The notes below the pieces were generated by a model that was given only the letters and a program-made list of their open reading frames with translations, was not told the origin of the DNA and made no database searches. The position numbers and the translations under genes were made by a program. From Cellulomonas sp. Root930 (GTDB lineage: Bacteria; Actinomycetota; Actinomycetes; Actinomycetales; Cellulomonadaceae), in assembly GCA_001429255.1 (NCBI GenBank), contig LMJI01000001.1, positions 1,343,256-1,407,255 on the forward strand: a stretch of 64,000 nucleotides of DNA, given 5' to 3'. Positions 6,541 to 17,601 of the stretch are shown one piece after another. How positions within the stretch are numbered: position 1 is the first letter of the stretch; each line of letters begins with the position of its first letter.

Positions 6541-6906
6541 TCAGAACCCGTCCGGGGGAGCGATCGACTCGCGGATCTCGGCGACCTCGCCCGTCCCCCT
6601 GACGAGCTCGCCGACGAGCGCGGCCAGGCCCTCGACGTCGTCCGTCGCGATCCGGTAGAGGCCCGCGAGAACCTCGGTCGGCTCGGCGAACGGCCCGTCG
6701 GTCACGGACACCCTGCCGTCCCTCAGTCGGACGACGCGCGACACGGAGTGATGGAGCTCGGCGCTGTCGCGGATCTCGTGCCCGGCCTCCGCGCAGGCCT
6801 TCCCGAAGGTCTCGTGCACCCGGTACCCCGGCACGCGGTCGGGTGCGTCGTCGCCGTGCCAGACCGTCTGGTCGCCGTACAGCGCCACGATGTACTCGGT
6901 GGTCAT
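6541..6906 (-). CDS. YCII-related DGPF-family protein, separate from a sigma factor gene
   Basis: 121 residues, ATG at 6906. Reads TTEYIVALYGDQTVWHGDD, then VSVTDGPFAEPTEVLAGLYR (true DGPF). It has no adjacent sigma factor but carries the same promoter elements (6937-6963) as the DGPF genes of module 1, 1-2 kb away, so it probably belongs to that regulon. It is convergent with the VOC gene and divergent from the padR gene. Confidence 0.85.
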   Translation of the reverse strand: MTTEYIVALYGDQTVWHGDDAPDRVPGYRVHETFGKACAEAGHEIRDSAELHHSVSRVVRLRDGRVSVTDGPFAEPTEVLAGLYRIATDDVEGLAALVGELVRGTGEVAEIRESIAPPDGF

Positions 6907-6936
6907 GGTCGTCCTCTCGTCGTCGGTCGCACGCAT

Positions 6937-6963
6937 GACGCGCGCCGGCGGGTGCGATCGACA
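6937..6963 (-). promoter_or_regulatory. Predicted ECF42 promoter, module 1 (site c)
   Basis: Minus-strand TGTCGA (6963-6958), 17-nt spacer, CGTC (6940-6937), 31 nt before the ATG at 6906. Identical core elements to the sites at 5004 and 5787, and ATGACGCGCG is shared by at least two of the three -10 regions. Confidence 0.72.
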
Positions 6964-7006
6964 GAGTCCCACGGAGGCTCGGGGGCCGATGTATCGCTAG
7001 GGGTTG

Positions 7007-7035
7007 TCAAAGATCTATCGAAGATATATCTTTGA
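7007..7035 (+). promoter_or_regulatory. PadR-type operator/promoter
   Basis: Inverted repeat TCAAAGAT ... ATCTTTGA with an AT-rich centre (tatcgaagatata) in otherwise GC-rich DNA. TTGTCA (7004-7009) could be the -35 box. It lies ~90 nt before the padR ATG. PadR repressors typically bind such AT-rich palindromes in their own promoters. Confidence 0.65.
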
Positions 7036-7121
7036 GTCATCCGGTCGAGATCGAGAGGCCTCCCGGAACCGCGACAGGGCCGCACCGGCCCGGCGGACCA
7101 CATCCTCAAGGAGACATCCCC

Positions 7122-7877
7122 ATGCGACACCCTCACTCCCACACCGACGGCCGCTTCGCCGGCCCCTCGTTCGACACCTCCGACCTGACCGCCCAGCGCG
7201 GTCGCAACCGTCGCCGCCGCGGCGACTTCCCCGAGGCCCCCTACGAGGAGGGCTTCGACCCCCGGCGCGGCGGACCCCGCGGCGCGTTCCCGCACGAGCA
7301 CCACGAGCACCGCGGTCGCGGCTTCGGCGGCCCGGGCTTCGGCGGTCCCGGCTTCGGCCCCGGCGGACCGCGCGGCTTCGGCGGTCCTGGTGGCCGCGGC
7401 CCCGGCCGTCGCGCCGGTCGCGGTGACATCCGTGCCGCGATCCTGCTCCTCCTCGCCGAGGAGCCCATGCACGGCTACCAGCTGATCCAGCAGATCGGCG
7501 AGCGGTCGGGAGGCACGTGGCGGCCCAGCCCGGGCGCCATCTACCCGGCGCTCAACCTGCTCGAGGACGAGGGCCTGGTGGCGATCACCGCCGAGTCCGG
7601 CCGCAAGATGGCCACGCTCACCGAGGCGGGCGGCACCTACGTCACCGAGAACGCCGAGCAGCTCGGCAGCCCCTGGGAGGACGCCGCGAACCGGCCCGCC
7701 TCCCCGGGTCGCGCGCTGCGCGGTGCCCTCGAGGCGCTCGGCGCGGCGGCCCACCAGGTCGCCCGCACCGGCACGGACGAGCAGGCGACGAAGGCGCTCG
7801 AGGTCATCGACCGCGCGCGCCGGGATCTGTATCTGATCCTGGCGGGCGAGGCGACGCCGACGACGACCCAGGACTGA
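7122..7877 (+). CDS. PadR-family regulator with Gly/His/Arg-rich N-terminal tail
   Basis: 251 residues; ATG 7122 has a strong ribosome site (AAGGAGA). The first ~110 residues are low-complexity, rich in Gly, Arg, Pro and His (GRGFGGPGFGGPGFGPGG). The PadR winged helix follows: IRAAILLLLAEEPMHGYQLI, GGTWRPSPGAIYPALNLLED, TAESGRKMATLTEAG. The C-terminal helices (TDEQATKALEVIDRARRDLY) are the usual dimerisation region. Such Gly-rich extended PadR proteins are common in Actinobacteria and often control efflux or stress genes. No obvious target gene is adjacent; autoregulation through the palindrome at 7007-7035 is likely. A strong terminator follows. Confidence 0.9.
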   Translation: MRHPHSHTDGRFAGPSFDTSDLTAQRGRNRRRRGDFPEAPYEEGFDPRRGGPRGAFPHEHHEHRGRGFGGPGFGGPGFGPGGPRGFGGPGGRGPGRRAGRGDIRAAILLLLAEEPMHGYQLIQQIGERSGGTWRPSPGAIYPALNLLEDEGLVAITAESGRKMATLTEAGGTYVTENAEQLGSPWEDAANRPASPGRALRGALEALGAAAHQVARTGTDEQATKALEVIDRARRDLYLILAGEATPTTTQD

Positions 7878-7889
7878 CCCACCACCCAC

Positions 7890-7926
7890 CGAGGGCACCC
7901 CGTGGCACTGCTGCGGGGTGCCCTCG
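7890..7926 (+). terminator. Rho-independent terminator after padR
   Basis: Perfect 13-bp stem CGAGGGCACCCCG / CGGGGTGCCCTCG with an 11-nt loop and a short T-containing tail (tctgt), beginning 12 nt after the padR stop. It also separates padR from the small HhH gene that starts at 7946. Confidence 0.85.
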
Positions 7927-7945
7927 TCTGTGCGAGCCTCGGGTC

Positions 7946-8119
7946 ATGGACCCACTGCCCCCGGGCCTCGGCAAGCCCGCGACCCGCGCGCTCGCCCTGG
8001 CGGGGATCGCCACGCTCGACGACGTCCGCGACAGGGACCTCGACGACCTCCTGCAGCTGCACGGCGTCGGCCCGAAGGCGATCCGGATCCTGCGCGAGGC
8101 GCTCGCGGCGAGCAGCTAG
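7946..8119 (+). CDS. Small helix-hairpin-helix DNA-binding protein
   Basis: 57 residues beginning MDPLPPGLGKPATRALALAG. The helix-hairpin-helix pattern is clear: GLGKPATRALALAGIATLDD and LLQLHGVGPKAIRILREAL, where HGVGPKA is the hairpin that contacts the DNA backbone. Stand-alone HhH proteins of this size are frequent in Actinobacteria; their role is unknown. The start lies 20 nt after the padR terminator, without an evident ribosome site. It is convergent with the DUF2071 gene (stops overlap by 4 nt). Confidence 0.8.
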   Translation: MDPLPPGLGKPATRALALAGIATLDDVRDRDLDDLLQLHGVGPKAIRILREALAASS

Positions 8120-8862
8120 AGCGGCATCGCGAACCGGGCGTGCACGCCCGGCGAGTACAGCACCGAGTCCGGTGCGCGGTCGGTGACGCCCGGCAGCCCA
8201 CCGGCGGCGACGAGCTCGTCGTCCAGCGACACCAGCGACGCCCGGCGCAGCGGCCACGGCTCGTGCTCGTTGGGCACGAACCTCGTCCGGCCCCTCAGCA
8301 CGGTGTGCATGCCCCAGCGCGCGGTGAGGAAGTCGGCCAGCGGGTCGTCGGTGACGGGTTCCGACGACGGCCGGACCACGAGGTGCGACGACGGCCGGCT
8401 CCCGGTGAGCCGGGTCGACCGGTAGTCGATCGCGTCGCCCGCACGCCGGATCGACATCCGCGCCCACTGGTACGGCACGTTCATCACCATCCGGGCGCCG
8501 AGCACCGTGAGCACGCGGGACGCCTCGAGCGACCGGAACAGGACCCCGCGCCGGCCCTCGTCGTCGACCGTGTAGAGCCGCACGTTGATCTCCGGGAAGT
8601 CCCCGATGTACGGCAGCGCCGGCCCGGGCACGATCGTGAACCGCGCCATCTGGAACGCGATCAGGCCCACCCACGAGGACCCCTCGCACTCGTCGGGACG
8701 CGTGCCCGGGGGCAGCAGCGGTGCGACGACGTCGGACGGCACCCGCCAGTGCAGGAAGCTCGCGCGCAACCAGTCCTGCGACAGGATCACCCGCCCGGGC
8801 AGCGGCGGCGCGACGGCCTGGATGGGATCCACCCCGCCACGGTAGGCGGCGGGCGGCATCAC
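8116..8862 (-). CDS. DUF2071 (YqjF-like) protein
   Basis: 248 residues. Family features: LSQDWLRASFLHWRVPSDVV at the start, LLPPGTRPDECEGSSWVGLI, then a long beta-rich barrel with RMSIRRAGDAIDYRSTRLTG. YqjF/DUF2071 proteins are cytoplasmic, of unknown reaction, with a fold related to acetoacetate decarboxylase-like barrels. The first ATG (8862) is followed by a second one codon later. It is a single gene, convergent with the HhH gene. The 66-bp repeat copy 3 lies immediately upstream of its start. Confidence 0.85.
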   Translation of the reverse strand: MMPPAAYRGGVDPIQAVAPPLPGRVILSQDWLRASFLHWRVPSDVVAPLLPPGTRPDECEGSSWVGLIAFQMARFTIVPGPALPYIGDFPEINVRLYTVDDEGRRGVLFRSLEASRVLTVLGARMVMNVPYQWARMSIRRAGDAIDYRSTRLTGSRPSSHLVVRPSSEPVTDDPLADFLTARWGMHTVLRGRTRFVPNEHEPWPLRRASLVSLDDELVAAGGLPGVTDRAPDSVLYSPGVHARFAMPL

Positions 8863-10284: not shown

Positions 10285-11511
10285 ATGACCACAGCTGCGC
10301 CCACCCGCGTGCACCTCCCGCGTCCGGTGGCGCCCGCCCTCGGCTGGCGGGCGTGGGTCACGCCGGCCGTCTTCGCGGCGATCGTGGGCGCCTTCCTGGT
10401 GATCACGCCCAATCTCGTCTTCCTCAGCATGCTGGAGGCCGACGGCGCCTGGGTGGTCGTCGCGTCGAGCCTCACCGTCGCCGCGGGGGCGACAGTCGTC
10501 CTCGGCGTGCTGCTCGCTCGGTGGTCCCCGGGATGGGCGACGCTGCTCACGGTGGTCCCGTGGGTGCTCGTGCCGACTGCCGGGTGGTTCGTGTACGGCT
10601 GGTGGCTGGGCACGATGGCGGTCGCCGTCGTCGCAGCCGTCGACGGGTTGCGCAGGGCGGTCCTGCCGTGGGCCGTGGCGGTGGCCATCGCGATCTACTA
10701 CTGCGGGTCGGGTGCGGAGGCGGTGCTCCCGATCGGCTTGGTGAACGCAGGGACGGGCAACGGTCCGGGCTTCCAGTGGGTGGTGTTCATCGCGCACGTC
10801 GTCATGTTCACCGCAGCCGTCGGCATCGCTGCCGCGGTCGGCGCGGAGCGACGGGCGAGAGCCCGGCACATCGCGGCCCAGGTCACCGAACAGCACGCCC
10901 TCGAGGTCGAGTCCCTCGCGGGTGAGCGCGCCCGGCTCGCCCGCGACCTGCACGACGTCGTCGCCCACCACGTGTCGCTCGTCGCGGTCCGGGCGGAGTC
11001 GGCGCCCTTCGTCCACCCGGACCTGAACGACGACGCCCGCGCGGTGCTGGCCGCCATCGCGACCGACGCCCGCGAGGCCCTCACCGAGCTGCGTCAGGTG
11101 CTCGTCGTCCTGCAGCGCACGTCCGACGAGGGCGAGCGCACCCCGCAGCCCACCGCGTGCGACGTCGAGGACCTGGTGGCCAGCGCGGTCGCGGCGGGTC
11201 AGCCGGTCGACCTCGACGGCGAGTGGCGCGAGGTCCCGCCCGCCACGGGCTACGTCCTGTACCGGGCCGTGCAGGAGGGGCTGACCAACGCCCGCCGGCA
11301 CGCACCCGGGGTGACCGCGCGGCTGAGCCGGACGCAGACGGACGGCGCGGTCGGCTTCCGGATGACCAACCCGGCGGAGCGCGTGGCGGAGCCGGGGCGC
11401 GGGCTGATCGGGATGCGCGAACGCGTCGAGGCGCTGGGTGGCACGATGACGGCCGTGGTGGACGATGACGAGTTCGTGCTGGAGATCCGCGTGCCCCTGG
11501 TGCCGCGGTGA
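10285..11511 (+). CDS. NarL-type membrane sensor histidine kinase
   Basis: 408 residues. Five or six hydrophobic segments occupy about residues 20-190 with no large extracytoplasmic loop, so it probably senses a membrane or intracellular cue. The HisKA_3 motif RARLARDLHDVVAHHVSLVA places the phosphorylated His at about residue 223. The ATPase domain has an N-box (AVQEGLTNARRHAPGV) and a G-box (GRGLIGMRERVEALGG). The stop overlaps the response regulator start as GTGA, so the pair is co-translated. Actinobacterial pairs of this kind often regulate a nearby ABC exporter, but none is adjacent here. Confidence 0.93.
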   Translation: MTTAAPTRVHLPRPVAPALGWRAWVTPAVFAAIVGAFLVITPNLVFLSMLEADGAWVVVASSLTVAAGATVVLGVLLARWSPGWATLLTVVPWVLVPTAGWFVYGWWLGTMAVAVVAAVDGLRRAVLPWAVAVAIAIYYCGSGAEAVLPIGLVNAGTGNGPGFQWVVFIAHVVMFTAAVGIAAAVGAERRARARHIAAQVTEQHALEVESLAGERARLARDLHDVVAHHVSLVAVRAESAPFVHPDLNDDARAVLAAIATDAREALTELRQVLVVLQRTSDEGERTPQPTACDVEDLVASAVAAGQPVDLDGEWREVPPATGYVLYRAVQEGLTNARRHAPGVTARLSRTQTDGAVGFRMTNPAERVAEPGRGLIGMRERVEALGGTMTAVVDDDEFVLEIRVPLVPR

Positions 11512-12155
11512 CCCGCGTCGTCGTCGCCGACGACCAACCCGTGGTCCTGCTGGGCTTCGCCGCCATCCTCGGGGCGGCACCCGACCTCCAGGTGGTCGGC
11601 GCCGCGAACGACGGCCGCGAGCTGCTGGCGCTCGTCGCCGCCGAGAAGCCCGACGTCGCGGTGGTCGACGTGCGGATGCCGCACCTCGACGGGATCGCGG
11701 CCACGCAGAGGATCACCGCCGAGCACCCCGGCACCCGCGTGCTGATCCTCACCACCTTCGACCTGGACGAGTACGTCTACGACGCCCTGCGGGCCGGTGC
11801 GAGCGGCTTCCTGCTCAAGGACGTGACGGCGGACCGGTTGGTCGAGGCGGTGCGGATGGTCGCCGACGGGTCGATGCTGCTGGGCCCGACGGTGACCCGG
11901 AGGCTGGTCGAGGACTTCACTGCGCGCACGCCGGCGCCGGTGCCGGTGGTCGGCATCGCGGACCTGACGCCCCGCGAGCTGGAGATCCTGCGCGCGGTGG
12001 CTCGTGGCCTGTCGAACGCGGAGATCGGCGCGGAGCTCTGGATCGCGGAGCCCACGGTGAAGTCCCACGTGTCGGAGGCGCTGCGCAAGCTCGGCTGCCG
12101 CGACCGTGTGCAGCTGGTGATCGCGGCGTACGAGTCGGGGCTGGTCGGGGTCTAG
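11508..12155 (+). CDS. NarL/FixJ-family response regulator
   Basis: 215 residues from the GTG at 11508. Receiver domain: TRVVVADDQPVVLLGFAAIL with the acidic pair, phospho-acceptor Asp at about residue 54 in VAVVDVRMPHLDGI, and FLLKDV as the switch Lys. The C-terminal LuxR-type HTH reads LTPRELEILRAVARGLSNAE and EPTVKSHVSEALRKLG. It is the partner of the kinase at 10285. The target is unknown. Confidence 0.94.
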   Translation: MTRVVVADDQPVVLLGFAAILGAAPDLQVVGAANDGRELLALVAAEKPDVAVVDVRMPHLDGIAATQRITAEHPGTRVLILTTFDLDEYVYDALRAGASGFLLKDVTADRLVEAVRMVADGSMLLGPTVTRRLVEDFTARTPAPVPVVGIADLTPRELEILRAVARGLSNAEIGAELWIAEPTVKSHVSEALRKLGCRDRVQLVIAAYESGLVGV

Positions 12156-13110: not shown

Positions 13111-13832
13111 CACGGCCGCCGCACCAGGGCGAGCACTCCCCATCCGAGGTACGGGCGCTGGTTCGTCACGTAGTCCAGGGGCGCGGTCGTCAGCTCGTCG
13201 CGGAACGCGGGCGCCAGCGGGTCGTCCGGGTGCTCGTCGAGGAACCGGCTCAGGTTGAGCCACTGGGCCGCCACGTACCGGTCCCAGCTGGCCTCGTCGG
13301 CGAGCACCATCTCGATGACGTCCCAGCCGGCGTCCTGCACCGCGGCGACCAGCCCGGGGAGCGTGTGGAAGTCGCCGATGGCACGCGCTGCCTCCGGTGG
13401 GTCGGACCGCCAGAACGGTTCGCCGACCAGCGCGACGCCCCGGGGCGCCAGTGACCGCGCCAGCAGGTCCAGGGTGCCGACCGCACCGTCACCGATCCAG
13501 GTCGCGCCGATGCAGCAGGCGACGTCGACGGGCGTCGGGGACACGTAGCCGGCGGCGTCGCCGAGCTCGACGACGACATCGACGCCCAGCGACGCCGCGC
13601 GTTCCCGGGCCGCGTCGACGAAGGCCGGGTTGAGGTCCACGCCGGTACCGACCGTCCCGTGGTCCCGGGCCCACGTGCACAGCAGCTCCCCCTTGCCGCA
13701 CGCGAGGTCGAGCACGGTCGCGCCCGGATCCAGGCGCAGCGCACGGCCGAGCGTGGCCAGCTGGTCGTCGGTGAACGGGTCGAGGATCCGGTGCGAGCTC
13801 TCGCGGATGGCGTGGTGGCGGAGGTGGTCCAT
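13110..13832 (-). CDS. Class I SAM-dependent methyltransferase
   Basis: 240 residues from ATG 13832. Motif I TVLDLACGKGELLCTWA, acidic loop GVDLNPAFVDAARERA, and CIGATWIGDGAVGTLDLLAR with LAPRGVALVGEPFWRS further on. Similar in layout to actinobacterial SAM methyltransferases acting on small metabolites. Its stop abuts the next methyltransferase start (TGATG), so the two are co-translated and may act in sequence. No pathway genes adjoin, so the substrate is unknown. Confidence 0.88.
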   Translation of the reverse strand: MDHLRHHAIRESSHRILDPFTDDQLATLGRALRLDPGATVLDLACGKGELLCTWARDHGTVGTGVDLNPAFVDAARERAASLGVDVVVELGDAAGYVSPTPVDVACCIGATWIGDGAVGTLDLLARSLAPRGVALVGEPFWRSDPPEAARAIGDFHTLPGLVAAVQDAGWDVIEMVLADEASWDRYVAAQWLNLSRFLDEHPDDPLAPAFRDELTTAPLDYVTNQRPYLGWGVLALVRRP

Positions 13833-13953
13833 GAGCCGGACGCTACGACCGGCTGCGTGCGCGGGCGAGCAGATATGACCCACCGTGCGCGTATCACCAC
13901 CCCGCGGCGCCTCTCTTCCCAGGTGACAGGTCCGACGACGAAGGGGGATGGCG

Positions 13954-14742
13954 ATGTCGTACGGCATCGGCACGGAGTGGATCAACGCGTACAACAACCT
14001 CAATCCGCTGACCCACGAGCACGAGGACGCGGGCGGGTTCTGGTACGAGCTGCGCAACCACGACAGCGGCACCGGGATCTTCAACTGGGGCGACGGGAAC
14101 GCGTTCGAGGACGACTTCAAGGCGAACGCCCGCGGCGGCCACGCCGACCAGTGGGTGGAGCAGGCCGACATCGTCTACTTCACGGGCCACGGCAGCCCGA
14201 GCGGCTTCTACTTCCGCAGCGACGTGCCGGACGACTCGCAGGTGCAGGGCGACTTCACGACGAGCGCGGCCGGCAACGACGGCGACCTGCGCCTGGGCCA
14301 CGGCGACCTGGAGTGGCTCGGCCTGGAGGTCTGCAACACCCTGCAGATGGACGCGGTCCAGCATGGCGCCAACCGGGACGTCTTCGACCGCTGGGCGGAC
14401 GCGTTCGAGGGTCTGCACGCCATCCTCAGCTTCACCACCACCAGCCTCGACCTGGCCAACCCCGGCCGGGCGTTCGCCTCCGCGATGGACGGGCGCTGGC
14501 TCACGGCCATGTTCGGCATCCCCGAGTGGCTCATCGGCCGGCGCCCGATGCGCGTGATCGACGCGTGGTTCTGGATGGCCGAGTTCACGCAGCCCAGCTG
14601 GGTGGAGTCGGCGGTGCTCTACGCCAACGCCCCCGGCACCAACACGGGCGCCGACTTCCTGCACGACCACGGCTTCGTCAGCTCCGACCCGCACCGCGGC
14701 GGCTCCTGGTTCTCCTGGACCTGGATCCCGCACGCCTGCTGA
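13954..14742 (+). CDS. DUF6345-like protein with caspase-type His/Cys pattern
   Basis: 262 residues from ATG 13954. The ATG at 13948 sits too close to the AAGGGGG ribosome site, whereas 13954 is well spaced. No signal peptide or membrane segment, so it looks cytoplasmic. ADIVYFTGHGSPSGFYF puts a His-Gly after a hydrophobic strand (His ~79), and LEWLGLEVCNTLQ puts a Cys after a second strand (Cys ~127). Their order and 48-residue spacing match the catalytic dyad of caspase-like (clan CD) peptidases. The C-terminal part is Trp/Phe-rich (DAWFWMAEFTQPSWVESAVL). I recall such proteins as DUF6345, uncharacterised. It forms an operon with the gene at 14771. Protease activity is inference. Confidence 0.72.
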   Translation: MSYGIGTEWINAYNNLNPLTHEHEDAGGFWYELRNHDSGTGIFNWGDGNAFEDDFKANARGGHADQWVEQADIVYFTGHGSPSGFYFRSDVPDDSQVQGDFTTSAAGNDGDLRLGHGDLEWLGLEVCNTLQMDAVQHGANRDVFDRWADAFEGLHAILSFTTTSLDLANPGRAFASAMDGRWLTAMFGIPEWLIGRRPMRVIDAWFWMAEFTQPSWVESAVLYANAPGTNTGADFLHDHGFVSSDPHRGGSWFSWTWIPHAC

Positions 14743-14770
14743 GCACCCCCGACTCTCGAGAGGAACCGTC

Positions 14771-15562
14771 ATGACCACGATCTCGGTCGCCCGCGTGCGA
14801 CCCGCTGCCCTGGACGACGACCGCTTGCGCAGTCTCGCCGAGGCGTTCCGCATCGACGGTGACGTCGTGCGCACCGAGGAGGCGTTCGCCGTCCTCGGCA
14901 AGGACGCGACGCTGGTGCACGGCGGCCCGGGCAACCGGCTGGCCGGCGTCACCGCCGTCATCGACACGGTGCGAGGCGTCGCCGCAGCGGACCCCGAGAA
15001 GGGCCACCCCGAGCCGCTGCCCGCCGACAAGGCCGTCGGCGTGGCCTCCGAGCTGACCGAGCGGTACGGGCTCGGCCCGGGCGTCGCCCGGTTCGACGGC
15101 GTCCGGCTGGAGACGAGCATCGACGCGACGGTCATCGAGGCGGTGCGCTTCGACGGCAAGGAGCGGACACGGTTCGCGGTGAAGACCGACGTCCGCGCGC
15201 GGGTCACGCTCGACGGCATCCCGGTGACGGGTCCGCGGGCGGGCGTGAACGCGACGTTCCTCGACGACGACCGTCCGCTGCGCCTCATGGCGACGACCTG
15301 GGACAGCGTCGAGCTCTACCGCGAGGCCGAGCTGGTCGAGGAGGGCGAGGCGCTCGAGCGGGTGCTCGAGTCCGCCCGGCACCGCAAAAGCCGGACAGAG
15401 AAGCTCTCGGTCGTCTCGAGCGTCCTCGCGTACTGGGCGGCGCCCTACGAGGGCGGTGCCGACCTGCTGGAGCCCAGCTGGTTCGTCGAGCTGGCGCACC
15501 CGGCCGACGAGTACGGCAACGACGGACCGAAGCAGCTGGTCAGGGTCCCGGCCGCCCGCTGA
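14771..15562 (+). CDS. Uncharacterised partner of the DUF6345-like protein; propeptide-like features
   Basis: 263 residues, 28 nt after the upstream stop with a GAGAGG ribosome site. I do not recognise a named family. The N-terminal third (RLRSLAEAFRIDGDVVRTEE) and the central section (TDVRARVTLDGIPVTGPRAG, followed by DRPLRLMATTWDSVELYRE) look like the small alpha/beta units of PepSY/FTP protease propeptides. The end, YWAAPYEGGADLLEPSWFVE, resembles the linker that precedes peptidase-like domains in fused proteins. An inhibitor, chaperone or substrate role for the DUF6345 protein is therefore possible but unproven. It ends at a strong terminator. Confidence 0.65.
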   Translation: MTTISVARVRPAALDDDRLRSLAEAFRIDGDVVRTEEAFAVLGKDATLVHGGPGNRLAGVTAVIDTVRGVAAADPEKGHPEPLPADKAVGVASELTERYGLGPGVARFDGVRLETSIDATVIEAVRFDGKERTRFAVKTDVRARVTLDGIPVTGPRAGVNATFLDDDRPLRLMATTWDSVELYREAELVEEGEALERVLESARHRKSRTEKLSVVSSVLAYWAAPYEGGADLLEPSWFVELAHPADEYGNDGPKQLVRVPAAR

Positions 15563-15565
15563 GCC

Positions 15566-15613
15566 ACCGGACGGCCTGCGCAGTGAGGGGAGCGCAGGCC
15601 GTCCGGTTCTTCT
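15566..15613. terminator. Bidirectional terminator between convergent genes
   Basis: 16-bp perfect stem ACCGGACGGCCTGCGC / GCGCAGGCCGTCCGGT around a 10-nt loop (agtgagggga), followed by TCTTCT on the plus strand. It begins 4 nt after the stop at 15562 and ends 4 nt before the stop of the minus-strand gene at 15617, so it can serve both. Confidence 0.9.
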
Positions 15614-15616
15614 GTG

Positions 15617-16264
15617 TCACATGTCGCGGTAGCGCACGGCCTTCGACAGGGCGGCGCGCAGGCCGTCGGCGTCGAACCGCTGGACGTAGGCCGCGGTGTC
15701 GCGCTGGTAGCGCCAGCCCTCCGACAGGGGGCCGACGTCGACCGCGTCGAAGCCGAGCTCGTCGATCAGCTCGGCCACCGCGGCCCGGGCCTCGTCCGAG
15801 TCGCCCGCGACGGCCAGCGCCCGGCGCTCGGGGGTGCCGGCGGGGACGCCCTGCGTGGCGAGGTCGCTGAACATGATGTGGTTGAACGCCTTGACCACGT
15901 GCGACGCCGGCAGGTGGGTCTGGAGCAGCTCGGAGACGGTCGTGGACTCGTTGTCGAGCGCCTCGATCTGGCCGTCGCGCTGCGGGTAGTAGTTGTTGGT
16001 GTCGATGACGACCTTGCCGGCCAGGGGCTCGACGGGGACGTCGTTCACGTTCTTGGTGGGGATCGTCACGACGACGACGTCCCCGGCTGCGGCGGCCTCG
16101 GCCGCCGTCCCCGCGCGTGCGCGGTCGCCGAGCTGCTCGACCAGGTCCGTGAGGGTCTCCGGGCCGCGGGAGTTGCTGACGACGACGTCGTAGCCGTGCG
16201 AGATCGCGAGCTGGGCGAGCGTGCCGCCGATGTGGCCTGCGCCGATGAATCCGATAGTGGTCAT
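15617..16264 (-). CDS. NADPH-dependent F420 reductase-like oxidoreductase
   Basis: 215 residues. N-terminal Rossmann fold TTIGFIGAGHIGGTLAQLAI, then VVVTIPTKNVNDVPVEPLAG and VIDTNNYYPQRDGQIEAL, the pattern of the F420-dependent NADP reductase/ProC-like family. The C-terminal part (VKAFNHIMFSDLATQGVPAG, ELIDELGFDAVDVGPLSEG) is characteristic. It may transfer hydride between NADPH and a deazaflavin or other partner; family members without F420 activity also exist. A deazaflavin-type nitroreductase at 33598 shows that F420 use in this genome is plausible. It diverges from the Usp gene with a 52-nt spacer. Confidence 0.85.
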   Translation of the reverse strand: MTTIGFIGAGHIGGTLAQLAISHGYDVVVSNSRGPETLTDLVEQLGDRARAGTAAEAAAAGDVVVVTIPTKNVNDVPVEPLAGKVVIDTNNYYPQRDGQIEALDNESTTVSELLQTHLPASHVVKAFNHIMFSDLATQGVPAGTPERRALAVAGDSDEARAAVAELIDELGFDAVDVGPLSEGWRYQRDTAAYVQRFDADGLRAALSKAVRYRDM

Positions 16265-16316: not shown

Positions 16317-16832
16317 GTGACCCGATCCGCACCGCACGCGTGGCACGGCGTGCCGACGCCGGACGGCCCGGCGGTGGTCGTCGGCGTGCTCCCGGGGCAG
16401 TCGCCGACCGTCGTGCGGGAGGCCGCGCGTCTCGCCCTCGCGATGAGTGCGGACCTCGTGTGCGTGTGGTCCGACGCCGCCCGCACCTCCGTCGCGCAGG
16501 ACCCCGACGGCACCCTGGTCACCACCCCGCTGGACCCGGACCACGTCGACGACCGGGAGGACGAGGTCGCGGCGGAGGTGGAGGTGGCCGCGGAGGTCGA
16601 GCGGAACCTCGAGGGGTCCGACGTGCCGTGGCGGTTCGTGTACACGGTCGGCGAGGCGTCGCGTGAGCTGGCGCGCGTCGGCCGGGAGGCGGGCGCGGCG
16701 ATGATCGTCGTCGGCAGCCGGCGTCCCGGCATCGGCGGGTGGATGAACCATCTGATCGGCGGCTCGACGGCCGGCCACCTCGCGCACACGCAGCCGCTGC
16801 CGGTGACGATCGTCCCGCAGGAGCATCCATGA
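16317..16832 (+). CDS. Universal stress protein (UspA domain)
   Basis: 171 residues, GTG start. AVVVGVLPGQSPTVVREAAR and LALAMSADLVCVWSD form the first beta-alpha unit. The ATP-binding motif G-2x-G-9x-G(S/T) is visible as VVGSRRPGIGGWMNHLIGGSTAGHLAHTQ, ending LPVTIVP. Its stop overlaps the first crcB start (ATGA), so it heads a three-gene operon with two fluoride channel subunits. Usp proteins modulate stress survival, and coupling to fluoride export suggests a role in fluoride or halide stress (inference). I looked for a fluoride riboswitch in the 52-nt leader and did not see one. Confidence 0.88.
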   Translation: MTRSAPHAWHGVPTPDGPAVVVGVLPGQSPTVVREAARLALAMSADLVCVWSDAARTSVAQDPDGTLVTTPLDPDHVDDREDEVAAEVEVAAEVERNLEGSDVPWRFVYTVGEASRELARVGREAGAAMIVVGSRRPGIGGWMNHLIGGSTAGHLAHTQPLPVTIVPQEHP

Positions 16833-17239
16833 CCCGATCCCCGCACCTCGATCCGAGGCTCGCCGCGGTCGTGGCGCTGGGCGGAGCGGTGGGGACGACG
16901 GGCCGCTGGGCGGTCTCCGAGTGGCTCGGCACGTCCGCCGGCGGGTGGCCCACGGCGACGTTCGTCGTGAACGTCGTCGGGTCGTTCCTGCTCGGGCTCC
17001 TGCTCGAGGCGCTGCTGCGGCGCGGTGAGGAGTCGCGCCGGGGCCGGCTGGTGCGGCTCGGTGCCGGCACGGGGGTGCTCGGCGGGTTCACCACGTTCTC
17101 CAGCCTGGCCCTCGAGATGGAGCGGCTGCTCGCGGCCGGCCAGGTGACCATGGGCATCGCCTACGGGGTGCTCAGCGTGGTCCTCGGGCTGCTGGCGTGC
17201 GTGGGTGGCGTCGCGCTCGGGTCTCGGCGGTCGCGATGA
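16829..17239 (+). CDS. crcB: CrcB/Fluc fluoride channel subunit 1
   Basis: 136 residues, four membrane helices. Family motifs: GGAVGTTGRWAVSEWL, PTATFVVNVVGSFLLG (the conserved Asn of helix 2) and GVLGGFTTFSSLALEMERLL (helix-3 break, GFTTFSS). Fluc channels work as dual-topology dimers that let F- leave the cell. Here two unlike subunits are encoded in tandem, so a heterodimer with fixed opposite orientations is likely. ATGA overlaps join it to the genes on both sides. Confidence 0.95.
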   Translation: MTRSPHLDPRLAAVVALGGAVGTTGRWAVSEWLGTSAGGWPTATFVVNVVGSFLLGLLLEALLRRGEESRRGRLVRLGAGTGVLGGFTTFSSLALEMERLLAAGQVTMGIAYGVLSVVLGLLACVGGVALGSRRSR

Positions 17240-17601
17240 CCGTCCTGCTCATCGGGGTCTTCGGCGGGATCGGCGCCGCCACCCGGTTCGTCGTCGACGG
17301 CTCGGTGCGCTCGCGGTGGAACCGGGTGTTCCCGCTGGCCACGCTCGCGGTCAACGTGTCGGGGTCCCTGCTGATCGGCCTGCTCGCCGGCGCGCACGTC
17401 TACCACGGGCTCGGCGAGGCCTGGCAGGTGGTGGCCGCGACCGGGTTCTGCGGCGGGTACACCACGTTCTCCACCGCGATGGTGGAGACCGTCCGGCTGA
17501 TCCAGGCGGGCGAGCTGCGCCGAGCGACCGCGAACGCCGTCGGCTCGGTGGTGCTCTGCCTCGGGGCCGCGGCGCTGGGCGTCGCGCTGATGGCTCTCTA
17601 G
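17236..17601 (+). CDS. crcB: CrcB/Fluc fluoride channel subunit 2
   Basis: 121 residues from ATG 17236 (ATGA overlap). VFGGIGAATRFVVDGSVRSR, PLATLAVNVSGSLLIGLLAG and FCGGYTTFSTAMVETVRLIQ carry the same conserved Asn and (F/Y)TTFS(S/T) features as the first subunit but with different loops, which is the usual sign of a heterodimeric Fluc pair. It is the last gene of the usp-crcB-crcB operon; the stop overlaps the convergent DUF2249 gene by 4 nt. Confidence 0.95.
   Translation: MTVLLIGVFGGIGAATRFVVDGSVRSRWNRVFPLATLAVNVSGSLLIGLLAGAHVYHGLGEAWQVVAATGFCGGYTTFSTAMVETVRLIQAGELRRATANAVGSVVLCLGAAALGVALMAL

Follow-up and report, generated by a model that had tools for sequence, protein, structure and literature searches.

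Metallopeptidase prodomains provide the precedent for a partner domain fused to a peptidase, reportedly set out by Gao et al. 2010 and Yeats et al. 2004, and in metallopeptidase zymogens the prodomain directly precedes the catalytic domain. YycI and YycH are regulators of the WalK kinase, and Craspase cleaves its target protein, releasing an active fragment. We know of no earlier link between the cysteine peptidases of clan CD and the PepSY/FTP fold seen in metallopeptidase prodomains, and no known clan CD family has, to our knowledge, a PepSY/FTP-type partner. PMC6393860 describes double PepSY-like proteins as inhibitors of protease activity and ties YpeB and the structure 3NQZ to 'double PepSY-like' domains. 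SleB and YpeB of Bacillus are encoded in one operon, and the PepSY protein YpeB is hypothesized to hold SleB inactive (PMC13393411).

A two-gene operon of Cellulomonas sp. Root930 probably encodes a latent cysteine peptidase that is folded and/or restrained by a dedicated PepSY-type partner encoded in trans. The operon lies in the window, the whole stretch of 64,000 nucleotides that was analyzed, at G000:C1:1343256-1407255, and has the following features:

13940..13947, + strand: ribosome-binding stretch GAAGGGGG preceding ATG 13954, from sequence
13954..14742, + strand: p1, DUF6345 protein of 262 aa, predicted to be a clan CD cysteine peptidase with a caspase fold
14188..14190, + strand: codon of His79 (TGHG), presumed catalytic, from conservation and from strand 73-77 just before it in the model
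14332..14334, + strand: codon of Cys127 (EVCN), presumed nucleophile, from conservation and from strand 121-125 just before it in the model
14758..14765, + strand: ribosome-binding stretch GAGAGGAA preceding p2, from sequence
14771..15562, + strand: p2, partner of 263 aa with a predicted PepSY/FTP-type fold (YycI/YpeB/metallopeptidase-prodomain-like)
15023..15295, + strand: p2 central part, aa 85-175, helix and long strands with a conserved GxPVxGPG-type motif, from model secondary structure and alignment
15332..15550, + strand: p2 C-terminal part, aa 188-260, helix and three strands, PepSY-like, from model secondary structure
15566..15607, + strand: hairpin 3' of p2 with a 16-bp stem, possible transcript end, from folding energy

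Both ORFs occupy the positions and the strand given by an earlier reading made from the letters alone (the sequence-only reading) and, with translation from ATG 13954, the His of TGHG is residue 79 and the Cys of EVCN residue 127, as that reading had numbered them. This start is preferred over the in-frame ATG at 13948 because of the ribosome-binding stretch at 13940-13947. The p1 stop and the p2 start are separated by a gap of 28 bases. The hairpin after p2 has a folding energy of -37.7 kcal/mol for 15560-15625 (z -4.03) and lacks the T run of the consensus terminator rule; promoter and terminator consensus scans returned none. Orthologues of p1 and p2 are present in six named Cellulomonas records, the p1 of named relatives is up to 96% identical to that of the window, and dN/dS between the window genes and the six orthologues is 0.10-0.38 for p1 and 0.21-0.71 for p2. 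These ratios make p1 and p2 look like real genes of which the partner changes faster and, together with the strong hairpin 3' of p2, indicate that both are more than chance ORFs.

The p1 protein belongs to a Pfam family of unknown function and adopts a predicted caspase fold. It matches PF19872 (DUF6345) over positions 1-219 of 221 with an E-value of 4.9e-62 and 209.7 bits against a curated cut-off of 26.9. DUF6345 alone matched at E<=5, in a scan where HMMER filters drop most matches above about 0.1, and none of the known clan CD families in Pfam (C14, C25, CHAT and others) matched p1. A PDB sequence search with p1 gave no match at E<=10. One candidate relative, 3mfn, was reached only by a p1 profile against the PDB at E 0.52 and was rejected as unconvincing. 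The AlphaFold2 model of p1, built from 17 sequences, has a pLDDT of 79.2 and a pTM of 0.84; it is the one of five models to reach 79 (the other four stand at 70.5, 49.4, 47.1 and 46.8), and its weak loops with pLDDT under 50 are residues 58-61, 91-95, 98-110 and 137-140. Foldseek places the SAVED-CHAT filament 8tl0 on top (E 2.6e-3, probability 1.00), with Craspase TPR-CHAT also among the best matches and all E-values above 1e-3. Of the 50 chains listed, 46 carry clan CD titles (CHAT, separase, caspases, MALT1, C11), whereas four are flavodoxin-type proteins outside the clan. VIA-align matches are clan CD by title in 50 of the 50 entries among those listed, with Z scores of 10.5-13.2, including 8tl0_I (SAVED-CHAT; Z 13.2, 3.2 Å, 187 aa) and the gingipain RgpB chain 4ief_D (Z 12.8, 3.2 Å, 184 aa). 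In the model, His79 follows strand 3 (73-77) and Cys127 follows strand 4 (121-125), which is the clan CD order.

The presumed active site is conserved throughout the DUF6345 family. Our sample of 88 ORF hits at 84 loci gave 63 DUF6345 domains after identical ones were dropped; these are non-identical and not independent, with near copies each counting singly (7 Cellulomonas domains of the window type, 8 of a second type and 11 fused domains from the Chloroflexota phylum). Position 79 is His in 60 of the 63, with gaps in L039 and L080 and Asp in L059, and position 127 is Cys in 62, with Pro in L080. Trp147 is found in all 63 domains, Trp205 in 62 and Gly80 of the HG motif in 53. Computation supports both the fold and the dyad, and the two together suggest that His79 and Cys127 would have catalytic roles. 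The sequence-only reading had called p1 caspase-like, and the predicted clan CD fold, in which His and Cys come in the order of that clan, bears this out; it had also named a fold unrelated to caspases and a lack of conservation of the two residues as grounds for abandoning the idea, and neither was observed. A caspase-fold protein that is no peptidase, for example a scaffold or a ligase-like enzyme, would be compatible with the loss of His in L059 and of Cys in L080 and with the legumain-type peptide ligases found among the VIA-align matches, but the dyad is kept in nearly all members of a very diverse family and we consider such a function very unlikely. L059 and L080 are divergent DUF6345 proteins that may be inactive.

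Searches of defense families and of the genomic setting argue against the role in defense or cell death toward which the sequence-only reading had leaned. A defense or programmed cell-death module would fit the patchy spread within the genus, where 15 of 81 genomes have DUF6345, and the occurrence of caspase-like folds in bacterial immunity, with SAVED-CHAT and Craspase among the matches. However, PADLOC 2023 had nothing at E<=1 for p1, for p2 or for the two fused relatives scanned, the six window neighbors scanned against Pfam are ordinary genes with no defense gene among them, no relative turned up in the phage records or the viral contigs, and by a hydrophobicity rule many relatives look exported, all of which makes such a module highly improbable. 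The mobile setting is represented by one relative on a plasmid (Deinococcus). In the PADLOC search, which also covered two neighbors of the pair, the methyltransferase gene at 13113-13844 (- strand), upstream of p1, matches the PADLOC profile mad2 at 6.4e-15 over profile positions 260-397 of 492, probably through a generic methyltransferase part. A two-component pair is located at 10285-12152, about 1.8 kb upstream of p1, with two opposite-strand methyltransferase genes in between. At 16739-17601, the window contains two overlapping short membrane-protein ORFs which we take to resemble a paired fluoride channel (FluC/CrcB).

The p2 protein has a predicted PepSY/FTP fold without being a member of these families by sequence. 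Neither Pfam nor NCBIfam contains a family that matches it at E<=5, and none of the 38 partner-family members hits the PepSY or FTP models of Pfam at E<=1; the 38 instead touch 11 other Pfam families, one member each, including YycI (0.021) and DUF4901 (0.074). A search of its own Cellulomonas genome for the FTP family found none. PDB matches to the p2 sequence (6iva at 0.037, 9i5t at 0.69) and to its profile (8yu5/8q9x at 0.038, YycI at 0.22) were set aside as unconvincing. The AlphaFold2 model of p2, built from 16 sequences, has a pLDDT of 86.6 and a pTM of 0.80. Twelve Foldseek matches fall under 1e-3: 5coz leads at 1.5e-6, and the other 11 are all chains of YycI 2o3o, from 3.1e-5. In VIA-align, 5coz (Z 12.9) is followed by YycI (10.9), a YycH model (9.6), the C-terminal domain of YpeB (9.4), the Aspergillus metalloproteinase (fungalysin) chain 4k90_B (8.2, 155 aa) and the vibriolysin MCP-02 chain 3nqz_A (7.2, 150 aa), the last in the range under Z 8 where the tool advises caution; after CD1622 (6.0) and YpmB (5.4), rows from Z 4.5 down are unrelated, and the lists rule out no family. 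Fetuin-B and cystatin-type inhibitors appear at Z of about 4, too weak to be taken as likenesses of p2. The top match 5coz is an uncharacterized Eubacterium rectale protein, EUBREC_2869, and may share a fold group with p2. We take 4k90_B and 3nqz_A to be prodomain chains and YycI, YycH, YpeB and these two chains to form one PepSY/FTP-type fold class.

Within the model, the central part of p2 would be FTP-like by topology, and the C-terminal part aligns with YpmB (model residues 188-263) and CD1622 (185-263), both weakly by Z. A PepSY/FTP-type module had been proposed for p2 from the letters alone; its fold (YycI, YycH, YpeB, 4k90_B) agrees with this, while Pfam sequence models do not. The end of p2, which had been likened to the linker of fused versions, is instead the last strand of the PepSY-like part in the model and is aligned with the corresponding part of the fused proteins. 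Since the top fold matches are an uncharacterized protein and YycI/YycH-type regulators, ranking above YpeB and the metallopeptidase chains with vibriolysin at Z 7.2, p2 could be a sensor: a YycI/YycH-like regulator that turns p1 on after binding a ligand or a second protein, instead of a prodomain that blocks it. The partner is also a separate protein in 35 of the 61 cases described below. We nevertheless find this unlikely, as YpeB and the metallopeptidase prodomains share the same fold and the precedent given for a PepSY partner of an enzyme, in PMC13393411 and PMC6393860, is restraint.

DUF6345 and the partner domain form a near-obligate pair. DUF6345 is found in Actinobacteria (Cellulomonas, Frankia, Knoellia and Salsipaludibacter in the sample), Pseudomonadota, Verrucomicrobia, Armatimonadetes, Deinococcus, a Bathyarchaeote, a Chloroflexi MAG, a Cyanobacteria MAG and further members of these two phyla, and in the control genome of Methanosarcina acetivorans. 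The partner accompanies 61 of the 63 domains: in 35 it is encoded by a separate gene that follows on the same strand, in 21 it is fused N-terminally and in 5 C-terminally. The two domains seen without it, L039 and L082, are both truncated on their N-terminal side, where the contig ends. Direct neighbors account for 33 of the 35 downstream genes, with the partner domain starting within 436 bases, and a second DUF6345 gene lies between in the other two. The partner profile was seeded with the N-terminal domains of four fused proteins only (L025, L035, L036 and L037) and, before iteration, matched window-type p2 (2.3e-5 in L001) and other genes downstream of DUF6345. Within loci chosen for DUF6345, the partner was found at E<1e-10 in 81 of 2395 ORFs, all adjoining or inside a DUF6345 gene, with the next ORF at E 0.84. 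Whole-genome searches represent the unbiased tests. Across 81 genomes of the genus, DUF6345 occurs at 18 places in 15 genomes, and the 18 strong partner places (E<=5.2e-19) are these same loci. Nine weaker, partial partner hits (E 4.9e-6 to 0.007) lie away from DUF6345, in a search that at first scored at most 31 candidates per genome and that weak partner-like domains could escape. Whole-genome searches in 26 of 39 further DUF6345 genomes (the remainder being G397, G485, G538 and ten Chloroflexota-phylum genomes) gave 30 partner hits, of which 29 lie at a DUF6345; the thirtieth (G884) ends 7 bases from a contig end, and the DUF6345 of that genome is itself truncated by the end of a different contig. 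Many hit sequences trained the partner profile, which flatters its E-values and leaves the positions unaffected. In a zymogen, prodomain and peptidase are made together in fixed association, and the same is seen here in the 61 linked cases and in the 2:2 arrays described next.

The pair recurs in fused, split and tandem forms. Fused versions, to which the sequence-only reading had alluded, were found in both orders in the neighborhood survey of the 63 domains. In the Deinococcus protein L025, a lipoprotein-like start is followed by the partner, an Ig-like stretch and DUF6345; the Ig-like stretch of fused forms is above the Pfam cut-off in L071 (Big_7) and weak in L025, L035, L059 and L068. This stretch counts against a zymogen reading because a metallopeptidase prodomain directly precedes its catalytic domain. 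The genome of the window itself also encodes a 502-aa DUF6345-then-partner fusion (L002; G000:C1:1420382-1421605, - strand) about 13 kb past the window end, and this type of fusion is present in two relatives (L023, L024) that both possess a split pair too. Genome G401 has two arrays (L089 and L090), each made up of two DUF6345 genes in tandem and, after them, a single gene that encodes two near-full partner domains, and these 2:2 arrays fit a 1:1 complex, which predicts two DUF6345 genes per two partner domains. In profile comparisons, window-type p2 matches the N-terminal domain of the four fused proteins with an E-value of 6.9e-5 and a probability of 63%, which is suggestive, and the C-terminal domain of the fused Cellulomonas paralogue with an E-value of 0.055 and a probability of 1%, which is not significant; the latter link is the weaker one as it is reached through the iterated profile alone. 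The pairing, the fused and split forms, the 2:2 duplication and the mostly matched export signals described below are likewise supported by computation.

A tree of 60 DUF6345 domains, drawn without L039, L082 and L080, contains seven changes between split, fused-N and fused-C forms. Its starred branches force only one change per label and many branches are long, so that repeated fission and fusion is likely and not proven. For 26 representatives of these 60 domains, with a mean identity of about 24%, p1 and partner distances co-vary weakly (Spearman 0.24, with 12 of 2000 permutations as high), a correlation confounded by species relatedness. Export signals, called by a simple hydrophobicity rule and not by a signal-peptide predictor, agree in 32 of the 35 split pairs: neither protein has one in 21, and both do in 11. 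In the three pairs where only the partner carries one, L034 is truncated by the end of its contig, a hydrophobic stretch of L065 lies farther upstream than the range of the script and the second L056 gene scores 1.64 against a cut of 2.0. Eight Cellulomonas genomes (L015-L022) harbor a second split DUF6345 type with THGN and YSCD/YACE motifs and a partner gene downstream; this type and the window type never occur together in any of the 81 Cellulomonas genomes. In Cellulomonas sp. PhB150, long ORFs with similar starts (VTTTQTR..., FRPDIQG) flank the pair (L031:2756-4855 and 6626-8713, - strand), as if it had been inserted between tandem copies.

The genes are adjacent and SAVED-CHAT and Craspase TPR-CHAT are Foldseek's best p1 matches, as would be expected if p2 were a substrate or effector that p1 cuts to free an active fragment in the manner of Craspase. 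Against this stand the single polypeptide in 26 of 61 cases, the 2:2 ratio in tandem arrays, the prodomain-type fold of the partner and a window p2 that leaves no room for an added effector domain, and we regard a substrate role as quite unlikely. In the latent peptidase model that we prefer, p1, with its caspase fold and His79/Cys127 dyad, would cleave peptide bonds with a narrow P1 preference like that of clan CD enzymes. p2 would bind p1 one to one, help it fold and/or cover the active site, and this restraint would end with the removal or degradation of p2 or with a ligand that triggers it. In fused relatives, partner and peptidase share one polypeptide, often with an Ig-like stretch between them and an export signal in front, and in the window the partner would be supplied in trans, inside the cell. 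We infer peptidase activity for p1 and binding, inhibition or chaperoning for p2, and the same applies to any trigger, substrate and biological role. A bolder version, which we offer tentatively, is that of a widespread and undescribed class of caspase-fold peptidases whose inhibitor, a PepSY/FTP prodomain of metallopeptidase type, has repeatedly moved between N-terminal fusion, C-terminal fusion and a separate gene, with a two-gene zymogen acting as an intracellular proteolytic switch in Cellulomonas.

We found no paper naming DUF6345 or PF19872 in the open-licence literature, and the papers found there on PepSY together with caspases or cysteine proteases describe, by their titles and the opening lines of their abstracts, no caspase-like protein paired with a PepSY partner, in agreement with the sequence-only reading, which had known of no described system matching the pair. 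p1 and p2 combine a predicted peptidase of caspase fold with a type of prodomain that is otherwise familiar from metallopeptidases, in what looks like an undescribed self-restrained bacterial protease family. A Pfam family of unknown function that spans several bacterial phyla and archaea thereby gains a fixed partner as well as a predicted fold with a presumed active site, and a PepSY-type family here comes with a concrete enzyme partner. The pair ties clan CD cysteine peptidases to the PepSY/FTP prodomain fold and, because it exists both fused and split, makes prodomain action in trans and the release of latency directly testable in small soluble proteins.

The locus combines features of several known systems. 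p1 is similar to clan CD enzymes (gingipain RgpB of C25, SAVED-CHAT, Craspase CHAT, caspases, legumain and separase) in predicted fold, His/Cys order and HG motif and differs from them in sequence, with at most 14% identity in the VIA-align rows among the matches listed and DUF6345 as its only Pfam family. p2 shares its predicted fold with YycI and YycH and has no kinase partner. Like SleB-YpeB, the window operon joins an enzyme gene to a gene for a PepSY-type partner, and p2 resembles the C-terminal domain of YpeB; according to PMC13393411, however, SleB is cortex-lytic and not caspase-like, and YpeB is membrane-anchored. Compared with the FTP + PepSY prodomains of M4 thermolysin-type and M36 fungalysin enzymes, p2 possesses an extra N-terminal part (aa 1-72), is encoded by a separate downstream gene and matches neither FTP nor PepSY in Pfam, and the enzymes served are zinc peptidases in M4/M36 and a predicted cysteine peptidase in p1. 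p2 nonetheless aligns with 4k90_B and 3nqz_A, and 21 of 61 relatives carry the partner ahead of the peptidase in a single chain, as in the M4/M36 enzymes.
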